Shown here in pieces: positions 1 through 62,509 of a stretch of DNA of 64,000 bases. Position numbers and translations under genes: made by a program. Under the pieces are notes generated by a model. The model did no database searches. It saw nothing but the letters and a program-made list of their open reading frames with translations, and was not told the origin of the DNA. The DNA is from Longimicrobiales bacterium (lineage in GTDB: Bacteria > Gemmatimonadota > Gemmatimonadetes > Longimicrobiales > RSA9): contig DATHUY010000107.1 in assembly GCA_035461765.1 (NCBI GenBank), forward strand, positions 1 to 64,000, given 5' to 3'. Within the stretch, counting starts at the first letter, position 1; each line of letters starts with the position of its first letter.

Positions 1-1
1 G

Positions 2-97
2 CGTTACCTGGTGGTGCTGCACGAGGGCGAGCCGACCGCACCGATGTCGATCGCCACGCGCGAACCGCGTGATGACGACGACGACGAGGAGGAATAG
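2..97 (+). CDS. rpsF: 30S ribosomal protein bS6, C-terminal end (partial)
   Basis: An open frame enters from the left edge and stops with TAG at 95-97, giving about 31 residues. It begins RYLVVLHEGEPTAPM and ends in a run of Asp and Glu. The RYLVV strand is typical of the last beta strand of bS6, and acidic tails are common in that family. The stop lies three bases before the rpsR start, the classical rpsF-rpsR order. Only the tail is visible, so identity rests partly on context. Confidence 0.8.
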   Translation, partial: RYLVVLHEGEPTAPMSIATREPRDDDDDEEE

Positions 98-100
98 GTC

Positions 101-322
101 ATGGCTCGTCCGGCAAAGAACTGCCCGTTCTGTGAAGCGGGCGTAAGGTACGTGAATTACAAGGATGAGAGCACGCTGCGGCGGCTGGTGACGGAACAGG
201 GGAAGCTGCTGCCGCGGCGGATGACGGGCATGTGCGCGCGTCATCAGCGGCAGGTGGGCACGGCAGTGAAGCGTGCGCGCTACCTGGCGTTGCTGCCGTA
301 CGTGAAGGGGTATCAGGACTGA
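101..322 (+). CDS. rpsR: 30S ribosomal protein bS18
   Basis: This small basic protein of 73 residues matches bS18 in length and sequence. It has CPFCEAG near the N-terminus (the zinc-type cysteine form), the NYKD segment, and the conserved R-x-TG-x-C-x-x-HQR block around residues 40-50. bS18 sits with bS6 on the platform of the 30S subunit. It starts three bases after the rpsF stop with GAGGAGGAA just upstream, and the next gene begins one base after its stop, so it is translated within a ribosomal-protein operon. Confidence 0.97.
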   Translation: MARPAKNCPFCEAGVRYVNYKDESTLRRLVTEQGKLLPRRMTGMCARHQRQVGTAVKRARYLALLPYVKGYQD

Positions 323-323
323 A

Positions 324-1262
324 GTGACGGCGGCGCAGCGTGGCCGCGGGTGGGCGGGAGTCGCGGGGCTTGCCCTCGCGACGGCCTTTCTCTCCGTGGT
401 GCAGCCGGCGCTGCTGATGTTCGTGCCGCTGGCACTGCTGTTCATCGCGCTGCCGCCGCGCCGCCCGCTGTTCCTCGCGCTCGGCTTGTTCATCTGCTGG
501 CTGGCATTCGGCGGGTCGACCGGGCACGATGTGCTCTGGTACTTCGAGCGCGGCTGGGCATTGCTGCTCGGCGCGTGGTTTGTGTTAATGGTCGTGGTGA
601 TGCCGCGCTGGACGTTTCTGCCGCGCGCGCTCAGCGCCGTCGGCGCCACGGCGGCGACGGTCACGATCCTGCTCACTGTGAATCGCGGCGGGTTTGCGAT
701 CCTGGAGAGTGCGATCGCGTCTCACCTGCGATCGCGGGCGGCACAGGTGCTCGCGGTCTGGCAGACGTCGAATGCGAGCCAGAGCGTTGGCGTGGACATG
801 CGCGAGATGCTGTTCCAGGTCGCCGATATGCAGGGCCGGCTGTTTCCGGCGCTGCTTGCGCTGGTCTCGCTTGCCGGGCTCGGCGTAGCGTGGTGGGCGT
901 TCGGCAGGGTGGCGCGGGGGATTCCGTACCCGCTGGCGCGGTGGCGCGATTTCCGGTTCCGTGATGAGCTGGTCTGGATCCTGATCGCAGGAGTGGCGTT
1001 GCTGCTGCTGCCGATCGACCAGATCGCGACTCGCGTGGGAGAAAATCTGTTGCTGTTCATGGCCGTGCTCTACGCGTTGCGCGGGGCGGCCGTGTTGCTG
1101 GTGATTGGCGGTGCGTCGGGTCCGGTCGGTGTGGTGATCGGCGCATTGCTGGTGTTGTTTCTGACTCCGTTCGTGATGGCGACCACGTTTCTCGTGGGGC
1201 TGTCCGATACCTGGCTCGACATACGGGCGCGGCGAGAGGCGTCGTCGACCCCCGGCTCCTGA
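324..1262 (+). CDS. DUF2232 (YybS-like) multi-spanning membrane protein
   Basis: The 312-residue product starts with GTG immediately after rpsR and ends 11 bases before rplI. It is almost entirely hydrophobic, with roughly eight predicted membrane segments, including a pair near residues 10-60 and a C-terminal pair around 230-295. Membrane proteins of the DUF2232/YybS family are known between rpsR and rplI in several phyla, so position and topology both support the assignment. The biochemical role is unknown. No catalytic motif is evident. Confidence 0.8.
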   Translation: MTAAQRGRGWAGVAGLALATAFLSVVQPALLMFVPLALLFIALPPRRPLFLALGLFICWLAFGGSTGHDVLWYFERGWALLLGAWFVLMVVVMPRWTFLPRALSAVGATAATVTILLTVNRGGFAILESAIASHLRSRAAQVLAVWQTSNASQSVGVDMREMLFQVADMQGRLFPALLALVSLAGLGVAWWAFGRVARGIPYPLARWRDFRFRDELVWILIAGVALLLLPIDQIATRVGENLLLFMAVLYALRGAAVLLVIGGASGPVGVVIGALLVLFLTPFVMATTFLVGLSDTWLDIRARREASSTPGS

Positions 1263-1273
1263 GGGAGAGTACG

Positions 1274-1738
1274 ATGAAGAATCTGAAAGTCATTCTGCGG
1301 CAGGACATCGACAAGCTTGGCGAGGCGGGCGAGATCGTCACCGTGAAGCCTGGCTTCGCACGCAACTACCTGCTGCCTCGCGGCTACGCCTTCGAGGCGA
1401 CGACGGCGAACCTGCGCGCGATCGAGGACGAGCGTGCGAAGGGCGAGGCGAAGGCGAAGCGTGACTTCCTCGAGGCACGGCGCCGGGCGTCGAAGCTGGA
1501 GGGTGTGTCGCTGACGTTCCACGCGAAGGCGGGCGAGGAGTCGAAGCTGTTCGGCTCGATCACGACGGCGGACATCGCTGACCGCCTGAACACGGAGCAG
1601 GGTCTCGGCTTCGATATCGACCGCCGCTCGATCGAGCTGGAAGAGCCGATCAAGTCGCTGGGTGTATTCCCGGTGGCGGTGAAGCTGCACCCGGAGGTAA
1701 AGCCGGAGATCAAGGTGTGGGTCATCAAGGCGGAATAG
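1274..1738 (+). CDS. rplI: 50S ribosomal protein bL9
   Basis: The protein has 154 residues and starts MKNLKVILRQDIDKLGEAGE, with the bL9 signature G-x-x-V-x-V-K-P-G-F-A-R-N-Y-L-L-P at about residues 20-37. The N-terminal RNA-binding domain is joined by a long charged helix to a C-terminal domain containing KLFGSIT. Length and order are normal for the family. GGGAGAG lies about 8 bases before the ATG. The last base of its TAG stop is also the first base of the left inverted repeat of the following transposase element. Confidence 0.98.
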   Translation: MKNLKVILRQDIDKLGEAGEIVTVKPGFARNYLLPRGYAFEATTANLRAIEDERAKGEAKAKRDFLEARRRASKLEGVSLTFHAKAGEESKLFGSITTADIADRLNTEQGLGFDIDRRSIELEEPIKSLGVFPVAVKLHPEVKPEIKVWVIKAE

Positions 1739-1759
1739 CCCCGGACCTGGCTTCACTTT
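1738..1759 (+). repeat. Left 22-bp inverted repeat of the RAYT element
   Basis: The 22 bases beginning GCCCCGGACCTGG are the exact reverse complement of 2796-2817. The match breaks at 1760/2795 on the inner side and at 1737/2818 on the outer side. The first base is the G of the rplI TAG stop codon. Confidence 0.9.
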
Positions 1760-1767
1760 ACGGTTAT

Positions 1768-1808
1768 GGCCGCTGCGCGCATGCAGTTTAAACCTGCGCT
1801 CAGCGGCC
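1768..1808. repeat. Imperfect hairpin at the 3' end of the transposase gene
   Basis: GGCCGCTG at 1768-1775 pairs with CAGCGGCC at 1801-1808. Further inner pairing brings GCGCATGCAG against CTGCGC. It overlaps the transposase stop codon. It could be a bidirectional transcription stop between convergent rplI and the transposase, or a structure recognised by the transposase. No T-run follows on either strand. Confidence 0.6.
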
Positions 1809-2738
1809 TTCCTGCATGGCGGTGGTGCGTACTGAACTGACGGTGGTCGGCGCGATGTTCAGGAAGCGGGCGATGACGCCGCCTCTATGGCCAGCCCCCA
1901 GCGCGCGTAGAATGAAACGGCGCCGGACCCGCACGACAGCCTTCGTCCTGTAGCCCGCTCGGAGCACCTCGAGCTCCATTTCAGGCGCGAGCTCTGAAAG
2001 GGTGCCGCGTGCTATTTCAGGCAGATCCTGCCGGGGGCGGCTGCCCGCCTCATCGAGGATCCGGATCGATGAATAGTTGCTGTTCCAGTGAGCGTCCCCG
2101 CCTGCCGTACTCGGCCGCACCGGAGGCAGACCCGCATGTAACCCGTTTTCCTCGGCGGCGCGATGCGCATCCGTGGCGCGCCGCCAATCCATGAAAAGCC
2201 GATAGTTGGTCTGGCACCTGATGAGGGTGTCCTCGCCACGTGCCGCGAAAACCCACAATGCCCGTCCCACGGATATACCGTTCCTCGTGCATTCACGCGC
2301 TCCAGGCGCGGCATACGCGGCATGCGAGCACCATTCATACGCATCCGGGCTGAGGCACAGGTTGGCCCTGAGAGCGTTGAGGTGGACGTACACGATGGCG
2401 TTTCTGAAGTATTCCGCGTCCAGGCATGGCGAAGCCCGGAAACGACGTTCGAAGACATGCCCGTCGTGACCGGTACACCGCTGCACCAGCAGCGCCACAC
2501 GCCGCAGCAACGGCTGCATGAACTGGCTGAGAGGCTGCCGTCCCTGCACTACGACCATATGCAGGTGGTTGGGCATTACGGCGTAAGCCAGCAGATCCGC
2601 GTCACTTCGCCGCGGCGCGTGGAGTATCCGACGCACCACCGCCTGTTCGATCTCGGTGAACCACGCGGCCCGTCCCTGGAGGCGGGCAGTCACGTGAAAC
2701 GGCGTACCGGGCAGGTGAGGTCTCAATCGGCGTCCCAT
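1800..2738 (-). CDS. REP-associated tyrosine transposase (Y1_Tnp, RAYT type)
   Basis: The 312-residue protein has the Y1 transposase core. Residues 55-63 read MPNHLHMVV, containing the metal-binding HUH-type pair H58/H60. Tyr117 in the YVHLNALRAN segment is the likely nucleophile. The G-x-x-x-H-V-T-x-R start and the F-E-R-R-F-R block are also typical. The C-terminal third, rich in basic residues and ending in a helix-turn-helix-like stretch (about 265-310), is longer than in minimal IS200 TnpA and fits the RAYT group. The enzyme would nick and rejoin single-stranded hairpin DNA. The frame is intact, so it may be active or domesticated. Confidence 0.9.
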   Translation of the reverse strand: MGRRLRPHLPGTPFHVTARLQGRAAWFTEIEQAVVRRILHAPRRSDADLLAYAVMPNHLHMVVVQGRQPLSQFMQPLLRRVALLVQRCTGHDGHVFERRFRASPCLDAEYFRNAIVYVHLNALRANLCLSPDAYEWCSHAAYAAPGARECTRNGISVGRALWVFAARGEDTLIRCQTNYRLFMDWRRATDAHRAAEENGLHAGLPPVRPSTAGGDAHWNSNYSSIRILDEAGSRPRQDLPEIARGTLSELAPEMELEVLRAGYRTKAVVRVRRRFILRALGAGHRGGVIARFLNIAPTTVSSVRTTAMQEGR

Positions 2739-2745
2739 GGGTCGA

Positions 2746-2785
2746 CGATATCACGGATATCGGGGCGCATCCATGGATGGATGCG
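2746..2785. repeat. Two adjacent hairpins upstream of the transposase start
   Basis: CGATATC (2746-2752) pairs with GATATCG (2756-2762) around a 3-base loop. CGCATCCAT (2766-2774) pairs with ATGGATGCG (2777-2785) around GG. They lie between the transposase start and the right inverted repeat, mirroring the hairpin at the other end. Confidence 0.65.
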
Positions 2786-2795
2786 GCTTTACCTC

Positions 2796-2817
2796 AAAGT
2801 GAAGCCAGGTCCGGGGC
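2796..2817 (+). repeat. Right 22-bp inverted repeat of the RAYT element
   Basis: Exact reverse complement of 1738-1759. It lies about 30 bases upstream of a putative extended -10 element that may serve rsfS. Confidence 0.9.
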
Positions 2818-2845
2818 GTCCCGGTGGCCCTTGCTGGCGCGTTCC

Positions 2846-2854
2846 TGTTATGAT
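2846..2854 (+). promoter_or_regulatory. Candidate extended -10 promoter for rsfS
   Basis: TGTTATGAT contains a TGn extension followed by TATGAT (5 of 6 to TATAAT). The best -35-like hexamer (TTGCTG, 2831-2836) is only 12 bases away, so the site would depend on the extended -10. It lies just outside the transposase element, where the interrupted operon would need a new promoter. Confidence 0.4.
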
Positions 2855-2868
2855 AAGGGGCCCCGATT

Positions 2869-3294
2869 ATGCGGATCCTGCAGAAAATCCGGATCGGCCA
2901 CCCCATACGACCACGGTACATGGCACCTGACGAGACGACTACACAGATAGAAATGACGCCCGTCCTCGAGCGCGCCACGGAGCTGGCCGCCGACCGCAAG
3001 GGCGTCGACATGCTGGTGATGGACCTTCGCGGGATCTCCAATGCAACGGACTTCTTCTTTCTGGTCAGCGGCACGTCCGACATGCACGCCCGTTCCATCG
3101 CGGAGCACATCATCGAGGAGCTGAAGAAGGAGGGCGTCCGGCCGAGCCACGTCGAGGGTCTCCGGTCCGGGCGCTGGGTCCTGATCGATTACATCGATTT
3201 CGTCGTGCACGTTTTCCACCCCGCTGCCCGCGAGTTCTACCAGCTCGAGCGGCTCTGGGGGGACGCACCGGTACAGGCGCTCGAAGAAGAGTAG
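2869..3294 (+). CDS. rsfS: Ribosomal silencing factor RsfS (Iojap/YbeB)
   Basis: RsfS binds uL14 on the 50S subunit and blocks subunit joining under nutrient limitation. The conserved core runs from about residue 32 to 135: DMLVMDLRGISNATDFF, an SGTSDMHARSIA helix, and the hallmark WVLIDYIDFVVHVFH followed by REFYQLERLWGD. The family is usually 105-125 residues. The ATG at 2869 gives 141 and has AAGGGG eight bases upstream. ATGs at 2920 (124 aa) and 2953 (113 aa) fit family length better, and if the -10 at 2849-2854 is used the first ATG would be nearly leaderless. The true start is therefore uncertain. Confidence 0.93.
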   Translation: MRILQKIRIGHPIRPRYMAPDETTTQIEMTPVLERATELAADRKGVDMLVMDLRGISNATDFFFLVSGTSDMHARSIAEHIIEELKKEGVRPSHVEGLRSGRWVLIDYIDFVVHVFHPAAREFYQLERLWGDAPVQALEEE

Positions 3295-3301
3295 GAGGCC
3301 C

Positions 3302-6300
3302 ATGAGGCGAAGTCTGCTGGCGGTATTGATCGCAGCGTGCTGTGCACCGCTGCTTGTGGCGGACTCCGCCCATGCGCAGTACTTCGGCCGCAACAAGGTG
3401 CAGTACCGCGCGTTCGATTTCCAGATCATCCGCACTGAGCACTTCGACGTCTATTACTACCCGCAGGAGCGGGAGGCCGCCCTGGACGCCGCCCGCATGG
3501 TTGAGCGTTCCTACGCCCGGCTGTCGCGCGTGCTCCAGCACGAGTTCGACGAGCGCAAGCCGCTCATCATTTACGCCTCGCACACCGATTTCCAGCAGAC
3601 GAACGCGCTCCCGTGGTTCCTGGACGAGAGCACGGGCGGTGTCACCGAATCGCTGAAGAGCCGCATGATCCTGCCGTTCACCGGGTCCTATGCGGACTTC
3701 GACCACGTGCTCACCCATGAGCTGGTGCACGGCTTCCAGTACGACGTGATCTTCCGTCGCGGCGTCGTCAACGAGGCGTCGCCGTTCACGGCCCGCCTGC
3801 CGCTCTGGTTCATGGAAGGCATGGCGGAATACCTGTCGATCGGCCGCATTGACGCCCACACGGTGAGCTGGCTGCGCGACGCGGTTCTGAAGGGCTACCT
3901 GCGCTCGATCGCGGAGATGTCGCAGCGCGATGACTACCTGTCGTACCGCTTCGGCCAGTCGCTGTGGGCGTTCATCGGCTCGAAGTGGGGCGACGAGGTC
4001 GTCGGAATCCTGCTGCAGAAGGCGCCGCGCATCGGTATCGAGCGCGCGTTCACGTCGACGCTCGGTCTCTCGCTCGACGAGCTGAACCAGGAGTGGCAGG
4101 CGGAAGTGCGGACGACGTACCTGGCGCAGGTCACCGAGTACGATCAGCCGGACGAGTTTGCCGAGCGGCTGACGAAGCACGACAAGCTCTACGACCCCTG
4201 GTATCTCGCTCCGGCCATCTCGCCGGATGGCAACGACTTCGTCTACCTGTCGCAGCATGACGGCTTCGCGTTCGACCTGTGGCTCGCGGACGCGCGCACC
4301 GGCAAGGTGAAGAAGCGGCTGGTCGGCAGTGCCCGCGACGCCGGCCTGGAGTCGCTGCGCTATATGAACTCGGGCGCGTCGTTCTCGCACGACGGTCGCT
4401 ACATCGCGTTCGCCGCGAAGGATGGCGGCCAGGACGCTCTGTACGTATACGACATGCAGCGCAACCGGATGTCGAGGAAGATGAAGTTCGATCTGAACGG
4501 CATCTCCGCGCCGAGCTGGGCGCCCGATGGCAGCCGCATCGTCTTTACTGGCCTGGACGGCGGCATCAGCGACCTGTTCGTCACCGACCTCGACGGCAAT
4601 CTCACGCGGCTGACGAACGACCGCTACGCGGACCTGCTGCCGGCATGGTCGCCGGACGGCTCGCGCATCGCGTTCACGACCGACAGAAGCGGCACCGATC
4701 TCGATCTGCTCGTATACGGCAACACGCGCATCGCGGTCATGGACGCAGCCACGCATCGGATCGACGTGCTGCCGCAGCAGGAGGAGGGCAAGAACATCAA
4801 TCCTGCGTGGTCGCCCGACGGCACGAAGCTGATCTGGGTAAGCGATCGCGACGGCACGAACAATCTCTATCTCTATGACCTGCAGCAGGGCGAGCTGTCG
4901 CAGATCACCGACGTCCTGTCCGGCGTGATCGCGGTCACTCCGCTGAGCCCGGTGATCTCGTGGTCGCGCAGCGGTCGCATGCTGTTCACGTACTTCCACA
5001 ACGCCGGCTACGACACGTACGCGGTGGACGATCCGCTGGCGCTCCCGCGCCGCAGGGTGCTTCCGTCGCTCGTCGCCTCACGCGCCGGCTCTGAGCCGGC
5101 AGCAGCCGATCCCGCGACTGCGGTGCCCGCGAACCGCGCTGCCGACTCAGCGGCTGTTCTGCCCGGCGCGGCGTCCGACTCCACGCTCGCTGCCCCCGCG
5201 GACAGCACCCCGACACCGGCAGTACCGGCCAACGGAGTCGCCGACTCCACCGCGTTGCCAGTGACCGCCGCCGCGGATACCGCGGTTGCGGCGCCGCCGC
5301 TCGGAGCGCGGCCGCCGCAGGCTACGCTCAGCGATTCAGCCGGCACAGCGGTGCTCGCGGGCGGAAAGCCGCTGCAGACGCCCGTCGCACAGCGGCCGGG
5401 ATTTGTGTCGTCGTATTACCGCGATCCGGACGGTGAATTCCGTCGCAGTGCGCTCGAGCTGCCCGGCGATCCGAACGCTCCCGCGCCCGTGTCGGTCATC
5501 GCGCTGCTGGACAGTGCTGCGCTCGCGCTGCCGGATACGAGCGTGTTCGAGCTGCGTGATTACAAGGTGAAGCTCACGCCCGATGTGATCGGTCGTCCGA
5601 GCATCGGCGCGGAGGTCGGCGGCTATTACGGCAATGGCGTATACGGCGGCAGCTACATCTCGCTGTCGGACATGCTCGGCAACCACAACCTCATGGTTTC
5701 GGGCAGCATCAACGGATCGCTGTCCGATGCCAGTTTCTTCAGCGCGTACACATTCCTGAAGCGCCGTATGAACCTGAGCGCTGCGCTCTGGCAGGTGCCG
5801 CTCTATCGCTACGTCGGCGGCGGATATTTCCCGCTCGACATCGGCGGCGAGCAGCGCGAGGTCGCGGCGAACATCTTCCTGCGCGACGTGATCCGCGGTG
5901 GCCAGGTCGGTCTGTCGTATCCGTTCAGCACGTTCCGCCGCGTCGAGCTGAACATGACGGGGGTCAACTACCAGAGCGACATCCTGTATCGCGGCTATGA
6001 CACGCGCACATTCAAGCCGATCGAGATCGACCAGTCGTCGGCGGGCTTCTCGTATGCCCAGCCGGAGGTCGCGATGGTATTCGACAACTCGCTGTTCGGC
6101 TGGACGGGTCCGGTCGTCGGCCGTCGCTACCGTATCCAGCTGTCACGCACGTTCGGTGACATACGGTTCAACGAGGCGCTCGTCGACTTCCGGAACTACG
6201 CGAACTGGAAGCAGAAGGTCGTATTTGCGACGCGTTTCGTCGGGCTGAGCCGGTTCGGCGGTGAGGCAGAGCGCTTCGGGCTCTACTGGGGCAGCCCCTA

Positions 6301-6799
6301 CTACATCCGCGGCTACGACTACAACTCGTTCAAGCCATCGAGCGGTGAGTGCGAGGACTCGCGGCACTGGGGCGAGCGGACGTCGCTCTCGCGCTGTCCC
6401 GTCCGCGACCAGCTGGTCGGCGCGAGCGCAGCGTTCGTCAATGCCGAGGTGCGCTTCCCGATCATCACCGAGCTGCAGATCGGCTTCCTCGGCAGCTTCC
6501 CGCCGGTGGACGCCGTCGCGTTCTTCGATGGCGGCATGGCGTGGGATGGCCGCGTGTGCGCGATCACGGACTACAGCCGTGCTGACAACTGCGCTGCGGG
6601 CGCGAGTCACGACGTCTCTATCACCTGGGACCGTAAGGCGGGCGAGGATCCGTTCCTGGTGCGGGAACCGCTGTTCAGCTACGGACTCGGCCTGCGCATC
6701 AACGTGTTCTACACGGTCCTGCGCCTGGACTACGCCTGGCCTGTGAACCGTGCGGACCGCAGCGGGATGCTCTCGTTCAGCTTCGGCCCGAGCTTCTAG
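3302..6799 (+). CDS. Secreted HExxH peptidase-like, TolB-propeller, Omp85-type barrel protein
   Basis: This 1165-residue protein joins three modules. A Sec signal peptide ends at AHA (residue 25). An N-terminal gluzincin-like domain follows, with HELVH (H139, E140, H143) and a downstream WFMEGMAEYL in which E172 could be the third zinc ligand. Residues about 300-590 hold repeated SPDG/APDGSRI blades with (S/T)D..G turns, typical of TolB/PD40 beta-propellers. An Ala/Pro/Asp-rich linker (about 595-700) leads to a beta-rich region (about 750-1165) ending in Phe, as in Omp85/BamA-type barrels. It most likely sits in the outer membrane with periplasmic propeller and protease-like parts. The zinc ligands look intact, but activity and substrate are unknown. 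It starts 7 bases after rsfS with GGAGG upstream. Confidence 0.88.
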   Translation: MRRSLLAVLIAACCAPLLVADSAHAQYFGRNKVQYRAFDFQIIRTEHFDVYYYPQEREAALDAARMVERSYARLSRVLQHEFDERKPLIIYASHTDFQQTNALPWFLDESTGGVTESLKSRMILPFTGSYADFDHVLTHELVHGFQYDVIFRRGVVNEASPFTARLPLWFMEGMAEYLSIGRIDAHTVSWLRDAVLKGYLRSIAEMSQRDDYLSYRFGQSLWAFIGSKWGDEVVGILLQKAPRIGIERAFTSTLGLSLDELNQEWQAEVRTTYLAQVTEYDQPDEFAERLTKHDKLYDPWYLAPAISPDGNDFVYLSQHDGFAFDLWLADARTGKVKKRLVGSARDAGLESLRYMNSGASFSHDGRYIAFAAKDGGQDALYVYDMQRNRMSRKMKFDLNGISAPSWAPDGSRIVFTGLDGGISDLFVTDLDGNLTRLTNDRYADLLPAWSPDGSRIAFTTDRSGTDLDLLVYGNTRIAVMDAATHRIDVLPQQEEGKNINPAWSPDGTKLIWVSDRDGTNNLYLYDLQQGELSQITDVLSGVIAVTPLSPVISWSRSGRMLFTYFHNAGYDTYAVDDPLALPRRRVLPSLVASRAGSEPAAADPATAVPANRAADSAAVLPGAASDSTLAAPADSTPTPAVPANGVADSTALPVTAAADTAVAAPPLGARPPQATLSDSAGTAVLAGGKPLQTPVAQRPGFVSSYYRDPDGEFRRSALELPGDPNAPAPVSVIALLDSAALALPDTSVFELRDYKVKLTPDVIGRPSIGAEVGGYYGNGVYGGSYISLSDMLGNHNLMVSGSINGSLSDASFFSAYTFLKRRMNLSAALWQVPLYRYVGGGYFPLDIGGEQREVAANIFLRDVIRGGQVGLSYPFSTFRRVELNMTGVNYQSDILYRGYDTRTFKPIEIDQSSAGFSYAQPEVAMVFDNSLFGWTGPVVGRRYRIQLSRTFGDIRFNEALVDFRNYANWKQKVVFATRFVGLSRFGGEAERFGLYWGSPYYIRGYDYNSFKPSSGECEDSRHWGERTSLSRCPVRDQLVGASAAFVNAEVRFPIITELQIGFLGSFPPVDAVAFFDGGMAWDGRVCAITDYSRADNCAAGASHDVSITWDRKAGEDPFLVREPLFSYGLGLRINVFYTVLRLDYAWPVNRADRSGMLSFSFGPSF

Positions 6800-7143
6800 C
6801 CCTGCTTCGCGGCTCCGAGACGCCACGTCACGGGCGCCCAACGGCTTCGAGCATCTGAAACGGCGCGCCTTCGGCGCGGCCGCGAGCGGGCTTCACCGCG
6901 CCATCAGCCTGCCGCCGCGGCGCCTCCGGCGCCGTAGGAGGGGGCGCTGTGGCTCAATAGGGCGCCGTCAGTGGCCGTGGGTGGCGTCAAACCGTGCGCG
7001 GCGGCGTAAGCCTCGAACGACGCGACCCGGGCACGTGCCGGGAACGCACCGCTCCAAAACGTCCTCTCCGACCTCGCGCCGCTCCCCGCCAAAAGCTACA
7101 TTACCCCGTCCCGTAGTTACCCCGACTTTGACCCCGTTTAAGC
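6800..7143. other. 344-bp intergenic region with GC-rich hairpins
   Basis: No gene is supported here. Two short GC hairpins stand out: CGCGCC-TTC-GGCGCG at 6864-6878 and GGCGCC-TCC-GGCGCC within 6918-6934. Neither is followed by a T-run, so they are weak candidates for transcription ends after the outer-membrane protein gene. The last 60 bases are less GC-rich and probably hold the promoter of the next operon, but I see no convincing -35/-10 pair. Confidence 0.6.
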
Positions 7144-9408
7144 TTGGGTTTGTGGCCCGTTGAGGTGCCGTTCCCGTTCGCGGACGGTATCGATTCCCAT
7201 GTGCTCGATGAGCTGATCGGAGGCCCTGCCGCTGCGCTGACCGCAGTCGCGCTGGTGGTGGCCCCCGGCGCACGTGCGTCGGGGTGGGGCGCCCGGGCCG
7301 CGGCGGCGCTGGCTGCCCGGTGGCGCGGCCCGCGACGCGTGCTCCTGGCCGACCTCGACCTGGATCGTCCGACGCTCCACGAGGAGGCGGGGATCGCCAA
7401 TGACGAGGGCGTGATCGACCTCATCGAATACGGCATTTCCGTCAGCCGGGTGATAGGCACAGGAGCCGCGGGGACGTACGACATCCTGCCCGCGGGCAGC
7501 TACACTCCTGATCCAGGGGCCATTCTGCGGCACGACGGCTGGAGTCGTGTGCTGCTGGAAGTCGCCGCGCGGCGTGGTACGCTGCTGGCCTGGGTGCCCT
7601 CGGATGCCGACGGCGTCGAGGCGGTGGTGGAGTGGGCGGGCGCGGTGCTGGTGCTTGCAGAGGCGGGCGAGGGCCGGGACGTGGTGGAACGTCTGCGCCA
7701 CCCCTATGCGGTGCTCGGCATCCTTACACCGGCAGTGGCGCCCGCAGCTGCACCCCTGGCTCCGGAACCACGGCCGACGGAGGACGATCTACCGGCGACG
7801 GAGAGCGCCCCGCCGGAGATGATGGCTGACTTCGACGACGACTCCGCGGTCGTGGCTGGTCCGATTGACGAGCCCACTGATTCCACCATCACCGACCATG
7901 AGGCGGCCGTCGAGACCGCTGCCGAAGGTGTCACTGAGGCGGAGGTCCTGGAATCGCTGGAGATCGGTGCCCGGGAGGCCGAGCAGACGGCCGCACAGGA
8001 CAATGGCGGCATCAGTATCGGCACTCCGCATGCAGCCGAGCCCGCCGCTGGCGACGCAGGCATCGGCACCAGCGCCGCCGATTCGGCCGAGCCCGAAGTT
8101 CCGGTCAGCCGCGGCCCCGCCGATACTGCCGCACCCGAAGCCACCCCCGCCGATAGTGTCGCTGAAGTTGCAGCCCGGGAGGAGGAAGAGCTCGAGGAGC
8201 GGCTCGAGAACGACCCGTCCGCGCGCGACGTCCTTGCCCACGAGATCCAGGAACGCCAGCGCGCTGCCCGCCTCGCCGGCGCCGCACCTGCCGCTCATGG
8301 CATTCCCGGCGTCGCAGCGGCGGCAGCGGCCGACCGGGCGGCCGAGGCCGCCGCTGCCGAAGCATACGGGACAGCCGCCATGACAGAGGGAGCGGCCATT
8401 GCGCACGCGGGCACCGCCCCGGACGAACGCGCCATCGGGGACGCTCCTGCCGCGGACGCTCCCGCCGCCGCGGACGCCACCGCCGCGGACGCTGCCGCCG
8501 CGGACGCTGCCGCCGCGGACGCTGCCGCCGCCCCGCACGCCGCGGACGCAGCCGTCGCCAGCGCGGCGCTCGACGACACCCGCCCGCCGGCTCCCGCCGC
8601 CGCGGATCTCCAACCGACGGAGGCCGCGCCGCGCCAGCCGGCGAAGGCGCCGCCGCCGCGGCAGCCGCGATCGCGCTATCGTCGTCCCGTGCTCTGGACG
8701 GTGGGCGTCGTCTTCCTGGCCAGCCTGCTCGCCGGTGCATGGCATTTCCTGGGCGGCCGTGTGGAAAGCGAGGAGCCGCCGGCTGCCGTGACACCGCCGG
8801 AGCCGGCGGCTCCGGCTGCACCGACGGCCGCGAATGCGTTACCCTTCGTCGTCGCGATCGAGGCGCACCGCGAGCTGCTGGTGGCGCTGAACCGGGTGAC
8901 CGACCTCTCGGAGATCGAGCCGGAGCTGCTGTTTCACGTAGAGCCGCTCGAGCGCGAGGGCACCATGTTCTATCACGTCATGGCGGGTCCGGTGCCGGAT
9001 TCGACGGCCGCGCTCGCCCTGCGCGATACGCTGATCGCGCGTGGTCACAAGACGGGACCGACGCCCACGGATGTACGGGCTACACCGCTCGCGTTCCTGA
9101 TCGGCGACTACGGCACGGTCGAGAGCGCGCAGGAGCAGAACGACATCCTGCGCCGTCTCGACATTCCAGGCTATGTGCTCCAGGGCACGGCCGCGGACAG
9201 CGCACCGCTCTACAGGCTTTACGTCGGCGGTTTCAGCACTGCGGCGGAAGCGGCGATCATCCGGCAGATGCTGCAGTCGGCGGGCATCCGCGACTCGCTG
9301 GTCACGCGCACGGGCAATGTCATGGCAGCAGACTTCATCAGCACGGAGGGGGACAGCGTGACGACAGGCGACTCCCTCGCAACACGAACGGGCAGCAGTA
9401 ATCCATGA
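7144..9408 (+). CDS. SPOR-domain membrane protein with degenerate ParA/CpsD-like N-terminal domain
   Basis: The 754-residue protein starts at a TTG; an in-frame stop lies at 7129-7131 and later TTG/GTG starts are possible. Residues about 35-200 resemble a MinD/CpsD-type fold: a Walker A'-like LLADLDLDRPTLHE (67-80), then IDLIEYG and ILPAG. The P-loop position (39-58) has no GK[ST], so nucleotide binding is doubtful. A long acidic, Ala-rich, disordered region follows (200-510), then one membrane helix (about 516-534). The C-terminus has two SPOR-like repeats (about 606-640 and 650-735) that would bind denuded septal peptidoglycan. The stop overlaps smc by four bases. It is probably a division or envelope protein; the function is unproven. 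Confidence 0.75.
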   Translation: MGLWPVEVPFPFADGIDSHVLDELIGGPAAALTAVALVVAPGARASGWGARAAAALAARWRGPRRVLLADLDLDRPTLHEEAGIANDEGVIDLIEYGISVSRVIGTGAAGTYDILPAGSYTPDPGAILRHDGWSRVLLEVAARRGTLLAWVPSDADGVEAVVEWAGAVLVLAEAGEGRDVVERLRHPYAVLGILTPAVAPAAAPLAPEPRPTEDDLPATESAPPEMMADFDDDSAVVAGPIDEPTDSTITDHEAAVETAAEGVTEAEVLESLEIGAREAEQTAAQDNGGISIGTPHAAEPAAGDAGIGTSAADSAEPEVPVSRGPADTAAPEATPADSVAEVAAREEEELEERLENDPSARDVLAHEIQERQRAARLAGAAPAAHGIPGVAAAAAADRAAEAAAAEAYGTAAMTEGAAIAHAGTAPDERAIGDAPAADAPAAADATAADAAAADAAAADAAAAPHAADAAVASAALDDTRPPAPAAADLQPTEAAPRQPAKAPPPRQPRSRYRRPVLWTVGVVFLASLLAGAWHFLGGRVESEEPPAAVTPPEPAAPAAPTAANALPFVVAIEAHRELLVALNRVTDLSEIEPELLFHVEPLEREGTMFYHVMAGPVPDSTAALALRDTLIARGHKTGPTPTDVRATPLAFLIGDYGTVESAQEQNDILRRLDIPGYVLQGTAADSAPLYRLYVGGFSTAAEAAIIRQMLQSAGIRDSLVTRTGNVMAADFISTEGDSVTTGDSLATRTGSSNP
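8440..8530 (+). repeat. In-frame 15-bp tandem repeats encoding an Ala/Asp tract
   Basis: Near-perfect units of GCTGCCGCCGCGGAC repeat about six times within the linker of the SPOR protein, encoding repeats of four Ala and one Asp. The first copies are degenerate and the last three nearly identical, as expected for slippage-prone low-complexity coding DNA. Confidence 0.8.
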
Positions 9409-12400
9409 AGCTTCGTCGTCTCACCCTGCAGGGGTTCAAATCCTTCGCAGACCGCACCGAGCTGCATTTCCATGACGGCATCACCGCCATCGTGGGGCCG
9501 AACGGCTGCGGCAAGTCGAACATCAGCGACGCGATCCGCTGGGTCCTCGGCGAGCAGCGCGCGTCCGCGATCCGCGGCTCGAAAATGGAAGAGGCGATCT
9601 TCCAGGGCACCACTCAGCGACGCCCGCTCGCGCGCGCCGAGGTCGCGCTCGAGTTCGACAACTCGGAGCAGCGGCTCGCGATGCCGCACAAGGACGTCGA
9701 GATCCGGCGCGTCGTCTTCCGCGAGGGCGGCAGCGATTACCTCCTGAACCGCCAGTCGACCCGCCTGCGCGACATCCTCGACATGTTCCGCGATACGGGC
9801 CTCGGCGCGAACAGCTACACGGTCATCGAGCAGGGCATGGTCGACTCGATCCTGTCCGATCGCGCGGAAGAGCGGCGCCACATGTTCGAGGAGGCCGCCG
9901 GCATCGGCCGCTACAAGGACCGTCGCAAGTCCGCGCAGCGCCGGCTGGAAGGAGCGGAGAACGACCTGTCGCGCCTCGAGGACCTCGTCTCCGAGGTGAC
10001 CACGAAGGTCAGGAGTCTCGCCCGCCAGCGCACGAAGGCCGAGAAATATCAGGAGCTGCGCCGTCGCCGGCTGGACCTGGAGGTGTCCGTCGCCCGCGCC
10101 GAGCTCGAGCGCGTCCGGCGCACGCTCGACGAGACGGCACGCGTACTCGAGGACCTGACGCGCGACGAGCCCGCGGCCCGCGCGGCGCTGTCCACCGCCG
10201 AGGCGGAGCTCGAGCAGCGTCGCATCGAGTCGACGGAAGCAGGACGCGAGCGGAATCTGGTCGCGGAGAGGCACCAGGAGATCTCGCGCATGATAGCCGA
10301 GCGCGAGCGCGAGCTGGCGGTCGCGGCGGAGCGGCGCGCGCATGCCGAGCGTCGCATCGTCCAGATCGGCACGGAACGCGACGAGCTCCATGTGCGCATC
10401 GCCACACTCGAGGCGGAGGTCGAGGAAGTCCGGCACGAACGCGGCGGCCAGGCGGGCGTCGTCGAGTCGCTCGGCCAGCGCGTGCTCGAGGTGCAGGAGC
10501 GCCAGAGCGTGCTGCGCCAGGAAGTCACGGAAGTGCGACGTGCGGACGAGGAGGCGCGCTCCCGCGAGAACGACCTGACGCGCCAGCTCGCGCGCATGGA
10601 GGCGGACGCGGCGGGTGCCGAGGCCCGGGCGCACGACGCCCAGGAGCGCCTCGAGCAGCTCGACGACGAGGAGTCCGAGATCCTCGCGCACCTCGCCCAG
10701 CTCGAGGAGCAGCGCGACCTGTTCGCCGAACAGGCCCGTCAGCTCGAGGAGCGCATCGAGGAGCTGAGCGCGCAGCGCGAGGGTTACGAACAGAACATTG
10801 CCGGCCTGCGCGAGGCCGAGCTCGAAGCGAAGCGCGCGCTCTCGGCCGCCGAGGACCACGCCAACCGGCTGGGCTCGCAGGTGGCCGCCCTCGAAACCAT
10901 CGAGCGCGAATACCAGGGCTTCGCGCCCGCCGTCGCCGCGGCGTTGAACGACCGCGGCAATATCGATGGCCTCGTCGGTCCCGTCGCCGAGTTCCTGAAC
11001 CTGCCGAAGGATCGCGCCGCCGCCGTCGAAGGCGCGCTCGGCTCATTGCTCCAGGCGCTCGTGGTGCGTGACCGCGACGCGGCCGCACAGGTACGCCAAT
11101 GGGTCGCGGCGCATTCGACGAACGAATTCGGGATGGGGAGCGGGAGCGTGTCCGGGCTCGGGATCGGGAAAGGCGCCGCAGTTCCCGCTCCCGCACACGA
11201 ACACGATCCCGCTCCCGCTCCCGCATTCGTTCAGGGCACAGTAGCCCTCATACCGCGGGACGCCCTCCCGAAGCTGGAAGCGCTGATCGAGGTCCTCGAG
11301 TTCGCCGGCACGCCGCCGAGCGAGCCGATGCTCATCGGTCGGCACGAGCGGCTCGAGCGACTGCGCCGTGAGGCCGAACACGCGGCGGAAGAGCGTGATG
11401 CCCGGCTCGCCGCGCGCGACGGGATCGCGGACCGCATCCACGACGCGGATGAAGCGCTCCGCGAGCTGCGCTCCCTGATTCAGTCAACGGACCTGGAGCT
11501 GAAGCGTGCCAACGCCGATGAGGCGACGCGGGCTGGACAGCGCGGCCGCGCCGACAAGGCGCGCGAGGAACTGGAGCGGCGCCGCGCCGACCTGCGTGCG
11601 TTGATCGAACGCGCGCGCGGCGACGCGCAGACCGCGCGCACATCGCGCACGGACCTCGAGCGCGGCCTGGGCGAGCACCGGGTGCAGTGGCAGCAGGCCA
11701 CCGAGTCGCTTGCCGAACGTGAAGCGGCCTGGGAAGAGGTGCGCGACGAGGAAGCGGAGCTGCGCGTGGCGCATGCCCGCGCCGAGGGTACGCTGACCGC
11801 GCTCGACCGGCGGATCGCGCAGGCGAAGCAGGACCTGCACAACGCAACGCACCGTCTCGATCAGCTGAACCTGGAGGAGCAGGAGCACGTCTCCTCCCTC
11901 GACATGCTGGCCGGCGTCAGCACGGGCGCCGGCGACCGGCTCCAGGAGCTGTTCGCACAGCGCGACGAGGTCTCCGTTGAGCTGCGCCGCCTCGACGAGG
12001 CACTCGCGGCGGCGGCGGATGCGGCGATGTCGCTCGAGGCGCAGGTGCGCACGCTGCGTCGCTCCACCGAAGAGCGCAGCGAGCTCCGCCACCGCCTGGA
12101 GATCCAGCGCACGGAGGCCGACGCGGCCGACCGTCGCGTCCGCGAGAGGCTGGAGGCGGAGTGGGCGAAGCCGTATGAGCAGCTGGTCGAGGAGGCGACG
12201 CCGCTCGACATGGATATCGACGTCATGAAGGGCGAGTTCAACGCAGTCACGGCGGACATCGAGCGGCTTGGTCCGATCAACATGCTCGCGATGGATGAGT
12301 ACGCCGAGGAGAGCACGCGGCTGGAGTTCCTGACGACCCAGCGCGACGATCTGGTGAAGGCCCGCGACGATCTGCAGCAGGCCATTCGGGAGATCAACAA

Positions 12401-12899
12401 GACCGCGAAGGACCTCTTCAACGAGACGTTCAACGCGATCCGCGAGAACTTCCAGACGACGTTCCAGACCCTCTTCGAGGGCGGCGAATGCGATATCAGG
12501 CTTGAAGATAGCGAGGATCCACTGGAGTCGCCGATCGACATCAGCGCCTCGCCGCGCGGCAAGCGGACCCAGCGTATCCACCTGCTCTCAGGCGGCGAGC
12601 GCGCGCTCACGGCACTGGCGTTGCTGTTTGCGATCTATCTGGTGAAGCCGAGCCCCTTCTGCGTTCTCGACGAGGTCGACGCGCCGCTGGACGAGGCCAA
12701 CATCGGCCGGTTCATCGGCATGCTCCAGACATTCAAGGAGCGCACGCAGTTCGTCGTCATCACGCACCACCCGCGCACCATGGAAGCCGCCGACTGGCTC
12801 TACGGCGTCACCATGGAGGAGCCGGGCATCAGCTCCATTGTCGGCGTCAAGCTGGACGATGTGCTCGAGGGTGTGAGCGGTAACGGCGCGGCCGTCTGA
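9405..12899 (+). CDS. smc: Chromosome segregation protein SMC
   Basis: The 1164-residue protein has the full SMC layout. The N-terminal Walker A is GPNGCGKSN (31-39). Two coiled-coil arms (about 170-500 and 660-930) flank a hinge (about 505-650). The C-terminal ATPase part carries the signature LSGGER (1061-1066) and a Walker B around FCVLDEVDAPLDEAN. SMC dimers with ScpA/ScpB organise and resolve chromosomes. Length is normal. The hinge carries an unusual Gly/Ser-, Ala/Pro- and His-rich stretch (about 572-609) encoded by a palindromic DNA segment. The ATG overlaps the preceding stop by four bases, so the two genes are translationally coupled. Confidence 0.97.
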   Translation: MKLRRLTLQGFKSFADRTELHFHDGITAIVGPNGCGKSNISDAIRWVLGEQRASAIRGSKMEEAIFQGTTQRRPLARAEVALEFDNSEQRLAMPHKDVEIRRVVFREGGSDYLLNRQSTRLRDILDMFRDTGLGANSYTVIEQGMVDSILSDRAEERRHMFEEAAGIGRYKDRRKSAQRRLEGAENDLSRLEDLVSEVTTKVRSLARQRTKAEKYQELRRRRLDLEVSVARAELERVRRTLDETARVLEDLTRDEPAARAALSTAEAELEQRRIESTEAGRERNLVAERHQEISRMIAERERELAVAAERRAHAERRIVQIGTERDELHVRIATLEAEVEEVRHERGGQAGVVESLGQRVLEVQERQSVLRQEVTEVRRADEEARSRENDLTRQLARMEADAAGAEARAHDAQERLEQLDDEESEILAHLAQLEEQRDLFAEQARQLEERIEELSAQREGYEQNIAGLREAELEAKRALSAAEDHANRLGSQVAALETIEREYQGFAPAVAAALNDRGNIDGLVGPVAEFLNLPKDRAAAVEGALGSLLQALVVRDRDAAAQVRQWVAAHSTNEFGMGSGSVSGLGIGKGAAVPAPAHEHDPAPAPAFVQGTVALIPRDALPKLEALIEVLEFAGTPPSEPMLIGRHERLERLRREAEHAAEERDARLAARDGIADRIHDADEALRELRSLIQSTDLELKRANADEATRAGQRGRADKAREELERRRADLRALIERARGDAQTARTSRTDLERGLGEHRVQWQQATESLAEREAAWEEVRDEEAELRVAHARAEGTLTALDRRIAQAKQDLHNATHRLDQLNLEEQEHVSSLDMLAGVSTGAGDRLQELFAQRDEVSVELRRLDEALAAAADAAMSLEAQVRTLRRSTEERSELRHRLEIQRTEADAADRRVRERLEAEWAKPYEQLVEEATPLDMDIDVMKGEFNAVTADIERLGPINMLAMDEYAEESTRLEFLTTQRDDLVKARDDLQQAIREINKTAKDLFNETFNAIRENFQTTFQTLFEGGECDIRLEDSEDPLESPIDISASPRGKRTQRIHLLSGGERALTALALLFAIYLVKPSPFCVLDEVDAPLDEANIGRFIGMLQTFKERTQFVVITHHPRTMEAADWLYGVTMEEPGISSIVGVKLDDVLEGVSGNGAAV
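11120..11232. repeat. 113-bp imperfect palindrome inside the smc hinge
   Basis: Arms 11120-11171 and 11181-11232 (52 bases each) match as inverted copies at 42 of 52 positions by hand alignment, with a 9-base centre. Both arms consist of CGGGA/GAGCGGG-like units and start with GAACGAAT. The frame stays open, adding a low-complexity stretch between conserved hinge strands. Confidence 0.85.
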
Positions 12900-62178: not shown

Positions 62179-62214
62179 GACCGGCACCGTCCTCTGGAGA
62201 GGGCGGTGCCGGTC
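62179..62214 (+). terminator. Strong hairpin after the DUF4382 gene
   Basis: GACCGGCACCG at 62179-62189 pairs with CGGTGCCGGTC at 62204-62214. Five more inner pairs (TCCTC with GAGGG, one of them T-G) make a 16-bp stem around TGGA, 25 bases after the stop. No T-run follows, so it may need Rho or act as an mRNA 3' protector. Confidence 0.65.
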
Positions 62215-62220
62215 GTCTAG

Positions 62221-62327
62221 GACCCCCCGCCCGCGCCCGGGTGCGCGCCCGCGCCCGTCCGGACGTCTTTTCCCCGGAACGGAGCGCTTTCGGGCCCGCG
62301 CACGCACGCGGGCGCGGGCTGGGGTTC
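62221..62327. repeat. GC-rich imperfect palindrome between DUF4382 gene and ybaB
   Basis: The left arm (62221-62248) and right arm (62298-62327) are inverted copies with a few mismatches, built from CCCGCGCCCG-like units and a roughly 50-base centre containing TCTTTTCC. Its unit structure resembles the palindrome found inside smc. The rest of this 355-bp gap holds no gene. Confidence 0.6.
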
Positions 62328-62509
62328 TTATCCGAGACCCATCCCGCACCCTCCCCCATACCCGGCAACATTCCCTGTCCCGGCGGGTATCCACGACAGC
62401 GCGCAGGGAGGCCCTTCAACCGACCTCCTGACCCGGCCTTCTACTTGCAATCGACGGCCGGCGCGCCCATGTTTCGCCTCCATTTTACCGGGTTGTTCGG
62501 ACGAATCCC

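Follow-up and report, generated by a model that had tools for sequence, protein, structure and literature searches.

What is a long inverted repeat doing inside the reading frame of a chromosome segregation protein, and how did it come to be there? The window, which is the whole 64,000-nucleotide stretch of DNA analysed here, contains an open reading frame at 9405-12899 on the forward strand, 1164 codons long, that matches TIGR02168, the chromosome segregation protein SMC, with 904 bits. The Pfam matches in its product are SMC_N and SMC_hinge, and the hinge match ends at residue 568, directly before the element that concerns us. This element occupies 11120-11232, is in frame without a stop, and is read as TNEFGMGSGSVSGLGIGKGAAVPAPAHEHDPAPAPAFVQ, at about residues 572-610. 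Its left arm (11120-11171, forward strand; 49.5 bits with the nhmmer arm model) is a G-rich hexamer array with its GAACGAA end outside and encodes approximately TNEFGMGSGSVSGLGIGK. A loop at 11172-11180 lies between it and the right arm (11181-11232, reverse strand; 56.0 bits), an inverted copy of the arm that encodes approximately VPAPAHEHDPAPAPAFV in the smc frame. The first-pass annotation of this DNA had described two 52-bp arms matching at 42 of 52 positions, set in frame in the SMC hinge. Our recount gave the identical figure, and the frame is open throughout. Extended arms of 56 nt, 11120-11175 and 11177-11232, have a complementarity of 80% and a spacer of 1 nt. For 52-nt arms with a spacer of at most 20 nt, the best inverted match in 200 codon shuffles of smc reached a maximum of 35 positions (mean 30), and the best elsewhere in the window (positions 1-11000 and 11401-62000) was 32.

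Is this segment simply a loop that SMC proteins have? Eleven other genomes of the same family were compared, nine of which gave SMC matches. In seven of these nine the alignment runs from residue 1 to about 570 and picks up again at 610, the two parts being a few bases apart; in the genome G002 the first part covers residues 1-571, and six bases separate it from the second, which starts at 610. In a hinge alignment of 51 rows the segment is present only in the protein from the window, and the absence from relatives that had been expected is thus borne out. As judged from these alignments, the segment is an insertion relative to the SMCs of the relatives. One other row carries an insert, VGGKGQGPGAKRQEGGREKGEDST, in the same hinge loop. 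It belongs to G011, which is of another genus of the family and whose SMC is 61% identical. The DNA of that insert (L068:736-807) is a GCCAAGG heptamer repeat, unrelated to the hexamers of our element, and this repeat has 44 matches in G011, many of them as inverted pairs. In the SMC tree the protein from the window, G002 and G011 form a trio whose branching order is not resolved, which fits a single hinge insertion as well as two. No SMC match was found in the drafts of G001, a congeneric genome, or G004, both more than 90% complete; both are rich in such palindromes, and their smc may have been lost at assembly. The hinge was also modelled with AlphaFold2 (mean pLDDT 89), and the modelled fold matches the solved SMC hinges 5h69 and 1gxl. 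In the model the insert is a low-confidence coil (pLDDT 54-61) on an intact hinge, between helix 72-86 and strand 130-132 in the numbering of the modelled piece.

The smc stretch belongs to a dispersed family of palindromic repeats built from short units. A search of the genome from which the window comes (hereafter the host genome, a draft of 171 contigs) with the smc element returned 91 rows at about 40 places, and a search with the arm model found at least 93 arms. A profile scan, which covered about 390 kb around the copies, or 8.3% of the genome, resolved about 60 elements, comprising 34 full palindromes and about 30 single arms. All 34 palindromes have one arm order, with the GAACGAA ends outside and a loop of 0-78 nt between the arms. 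The units of the arms are hexamers, CGGGAK/CGTGTK, with the variable positions six apart and an autocorrelation of 0.65 at lag 6; the peaks fall at lags 6 and 12 in the host genome and in G001, and at 7 and 14 in G011. The outcome that the first-pass annotation had set against its own reading, a segment found in all relatives and without another genomic copy, did not occur, and an ordinary SMC loop is ruled out by the dispersed copies together with the relatives that lack the segment. A palindrome with almost no spacer could also be thought to have arisen by fold-back duplication in place within smc. However, both arms match the roughly 60 copies elsewhere, and arms of the same element are no more alike (0.655) than arms of different elements (0.673; permutation p 0.94). 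The complementarity therefore follows from common membership of the family; duplication in place is refuted by the dispersed copies, and we give it practically no weight.

The element had also been proposed to form an RNA hairpin. As RNA it is predicted to fold with -77 kcal/mol (z -6.5), so that a strong hairpin is indeed possible, but the permutation test gives no indication of selection for pairing between the two arms of an element. This bears on the idea that a hairpin or G-quadruplex in the mRNA, or else the hinge loop itself, regulates SMC. The great predicted stability of the hairpin, the G-richness of the arms and the insert at the same hinge position in a second genus would suit such a role. 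Most relatives, however, have no hinge insert at all, the two arms give no sign of being maintained together, and only 2 of 83 arms contain a strict G-quadruplex pattern with loops of at most 7. We therefore consider a regulatory function improbable.

Where, then, do the copies reside? The 55 other copies lie in the intergenic parts of a sequence of which 91.5% is coding, and they are placed with a strong preference for the ends of genes. Facing 3′ ends lie within -5 to +10 bp of an element in 47 of 65 cases, versus 5 of 43 for facing 5′ ends (p = 3e-10). In the commonest junction the stop codon and the start of the element overlap, (TGA)ACGAATTCGGG, with the stop in parentheses. At several sites G001 uses the same stop codon, and thus the element stands at the end of an unchanged gene, with no truncation. 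Mycobacterial MIRUs, which are short tandem direct repeats at stop-start overlaps, are similar in being short repeats lodged at stop codons; here, by contrast, the repeats are palindromes at gene 3′ ends. An element behind a stop codon would give the transcript a strong 3′ hairpin, and these intergenic hairpins may act on transcript ends. Intrinsic terminators are not in excess in a 19-kb part of the window, where 5 were counted compared with 7.5 in shuffles, and a T tract after the elements is absent. Two intergenic arrangements may be recorded separately. At L055 (C62:37769-37897) the reading frame of a gene continues into the element as far as a TAG derived from a mutated hexamer, so that its protein ends in a tail, EGNRERERDR, which the G001 ortholog lacks. 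L042 and L054 are a duplicated convergent gene pair, probably adenosylhomocysteinase and a nitrilase-like hydrolase, and each copy has an element between its two stops.

The proposal that the element is of a kind that enters genes is supported, with a qualification: six of the roughly 60 copies, counting smc, lie in frame in coding genes, but most abut stop codons instead. Gene calls outside the window were made with a simple home-made dicodon scorer. Full palindromes are found in smc and in an MsbA-like ABC transporter gene, and single arms in leuS, mfd, dnaE2 and metH, the mfd copy being weak (19.7 bits). The consensus arm is open in all six frames, as are 66 of 83 arms, compared with 8% of composition-preserving shuffles, and arm lengths often differ by six. 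With six open frames and length differences of this size, residence in frame within genes is easy. In leuS, relatives lack 11 residues at the element site, with a clean gap; since this net gain is smaller than the 16 amino acids of the element, some host residues were replaced there. From the known layout of LeuRS we take this copy to lie within the region of the editing domain. The end of the leuS contig in G001 (L220, end of G001:C173) coincides with this site, as if the assembly had broken on a repeat. The metH copy lies in a linker in mid-protein, and that of the ABC transporter between the membrane and nucleotide-binding parts; the element linker in metH, dnaE2 and the ABC gene varies among relatives. 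The dnaE2 copy is common to G001, which reads HSHSHS where the host genome reads PAPAPG. Another in-frame insert is present in dnaE2 (L063) at about residues 870-965, NHRAHRAHRA ... QQQQQQQ ... SSVCSVCSVV, and resembles the in-frame translation of a further palindromic repeat, unrelated to the main family.

We propose that the smc segment is a copy of a dispersed palindromic repeat that persists there as a tolerated, translated insertion, a reading to which we assign a probability of roughly three in four. The repeat, non-coding in itself and made of two inverted G-rich hexamer arms, would be copied around the genome by some machinery and would usually settle immediately downstream of a stop codon, the place at which it is least harmful. 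As the hexamers form no stop codon in six frames, a copy that falls in a gene and whose net length is divisible by three would be translated, adding to the protein a flexible run of residues rich in Gly/Ser or Ala/Pro. Copies of this sort would survive where the protein tolerates a loop, which in SMC would be the hinge turn that joins a helix to the following strand. In smc the copy is most likely tolerated and serves no function of its own, and its loop is probably neutral.

What has happened to the repeats since they were placed? G001 carries its own palindromes, with the hexamer GTGGGA, in about 36 copies as counted from BLAST places (a profile search from a single arm gave only 6). The flanks of 16 of the 36 fall in the 8.3% of the host genome that was read (p 8e-9), and 13 of the 36 are at the positions of host-genome elements (p about 1e-15 versus random gene 3′ ends). 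One common site is between ftsA and ftsZ (L040; gene names assigned from sequence). The matching flanks are mostly 80-90% identical, yet the elements at these orthologous positions score 0.129, versus 0.140 for random cross-species pairs and 0.417 and 0.345 for paralogous elements within each species. A query that gives 58 matches in G001 found no G001-type copy in the host genome. G001 itself retains a dozen arms of the host-genome type, some of them at common positions, and several element sites of the host genome are empty in G001. Between these two congeneric genomes, positions have been kept and the sequence has been turned over, and the copies within each genome have probably been homogenised.

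It is tempting to suppose that each lineage in this family carries genome-wide palindromes at inherited positions, the unit sequence being rewritten in concert and the copies in genes included. We offer this generalisation only tentatively. It would need a system of copying or gene conversion that is guided by structure or position and not by a fixed sequence. Alternatively, different repeat families may have entered one small set of permissive sites, such as stop-codon junctions, linkers between domains and the SMC hinge loop, independently of one another, with old copies never rewritten in place, which we regard as a serious possibility, if not the one we would choose. Sites common to two species yet different in sequence fit insertion hot spots, as do the sites that are empty in G001. 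So do the SMC trio, in which the hinge of G011 has an unrelated heptamer element and that of G002 has none, and the metH linker, which in G004, G002 and G007 consists of other short-unit palindromes. On the other hand, 13 of 36 exact co-locations in congeneric genomes would require a very strong site preference, and the host genome is free of G001-type copies. For the intergenic sites, concerted rewriting of whole sets is somewhat more likely than repeated hits, and for the SMC loop and the metH linker repeated hits by different families are somewhat more likely. Common positions with unlike sequences in congeneric genomes make repeat homogenisation and recurrent site hits directly testable.

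Which enzyme might move such repeats? REP, BIME and REPIN elements are inverted doublets with a diverse spacer, also found as single copies, that are extragenic and hairpin forming and are associated with RAYT transposases (PMC8049555). The elements described here are similar in many respects, with 34 doublets in one order, about 30 singlets and a loop of variable length, and could therefore be inverted REP doublets moved by RAYT, a Y1 transposase. The host genome has two Y1_Tnp genes, both on the contig of the window. However, the arms here are tandem hexamers, and repeat arms flank neither Y1_Tnp gene; one of the two is flanked by a different inverted repeat. Nor was a Y1_Tnp match found in G004, which has 58 arms (draft 91% complete), or in G011, which has its own repeat family at about 40 places (draft 85% complete). 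A REPIN-like origin thus seems unlikely. Among the copies read, none appeared to be an autonomous parent transposon with the same ends. No target-site duplication was found, the flanks in the host genome and G001 differing by about 20%, with no near-identical empty site for comparison. That neither a carrier enzyme nor a target-site duplication was found weakens the case for transposition itself; the copies have probably spread by a transposition-like copying.

Among known systems, the closest kind is the repeat of Xanthomonas, where each genome has about 185 scattered G-rich short-unit repeats made of GGGAATC heptamers; these occur singly or in pairs, inverted with respect to each other on opposite strands, and are not associated with transposable elements (PMC4692102). 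They are mostly intergenic, near or overlapping stop codons, with few in genes, and 83% are at the same place in two species, which share one unit; a counterpart in Nostoc has the unit GGGGAYT (PMC4692102). Our family shares the tandem G-rich units, the single or inverted arrays, the intergenic location near stop codons and the conserved places. It differs in its 6-nt unit, CGGGAK/CGTGTK and not GGGAATC, in its occurrence in another phylum, in its documented in-frame copies in conserved genes, and in a unit that is wholly different between congeneric species at common positions. The repeat found here also behaves like the Rickettsia palindromic elements (RPEs), palindromes that measure about 100-150 bp and occur in frame in conserved genes that have no relation to one another, with one conserved peptide and nearly half of their copies in genes (PMC10969869). 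The likeness to RPEs suggested by the first-pass annotation therefore holds for behaviour, a palindrome inserted in frame in protein genes, but probably not for family. Here the sequence is different and hexamer-based, with arms open in six frames, only about 10% of the copies are in genes, most of the others being at stop-codon junctions, their main habitat, and the host is not Rickettsia, its SMC relatives at about 44-60% identity being Gemmatimonadota. Titles in the literature on palindromic repeats and Gemmatimonadetes revealed nothing on such elements. Palindromes that code for protein have been described as peculiar to Rickettsia (Ogata 2002, as cited in PMC10969869); a hexamer palindrome of an unrelated phylum also enters conserved genes in frame, the SMC hinge among them, and shows which loops tolerate it.

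The window contains two further structures of related interest. At 1740-2816 on the reverse strand, between two genes, the RAYT-like Y1_Tnp gene and its 21-bp inverted repeat (ccccggacctggcttcacttt / aaagtgaagccaggtccgggg) seem to form a self-contained unit. At 62213-62335 there is a second, G+C-rich palindrome (CCCGCGCCCG) with 45-nt arms that are 80% complementary; its relatives at L176:3000-3036 and L170:3047-3081 stand beside copies of the main family and represent a second repeat family.
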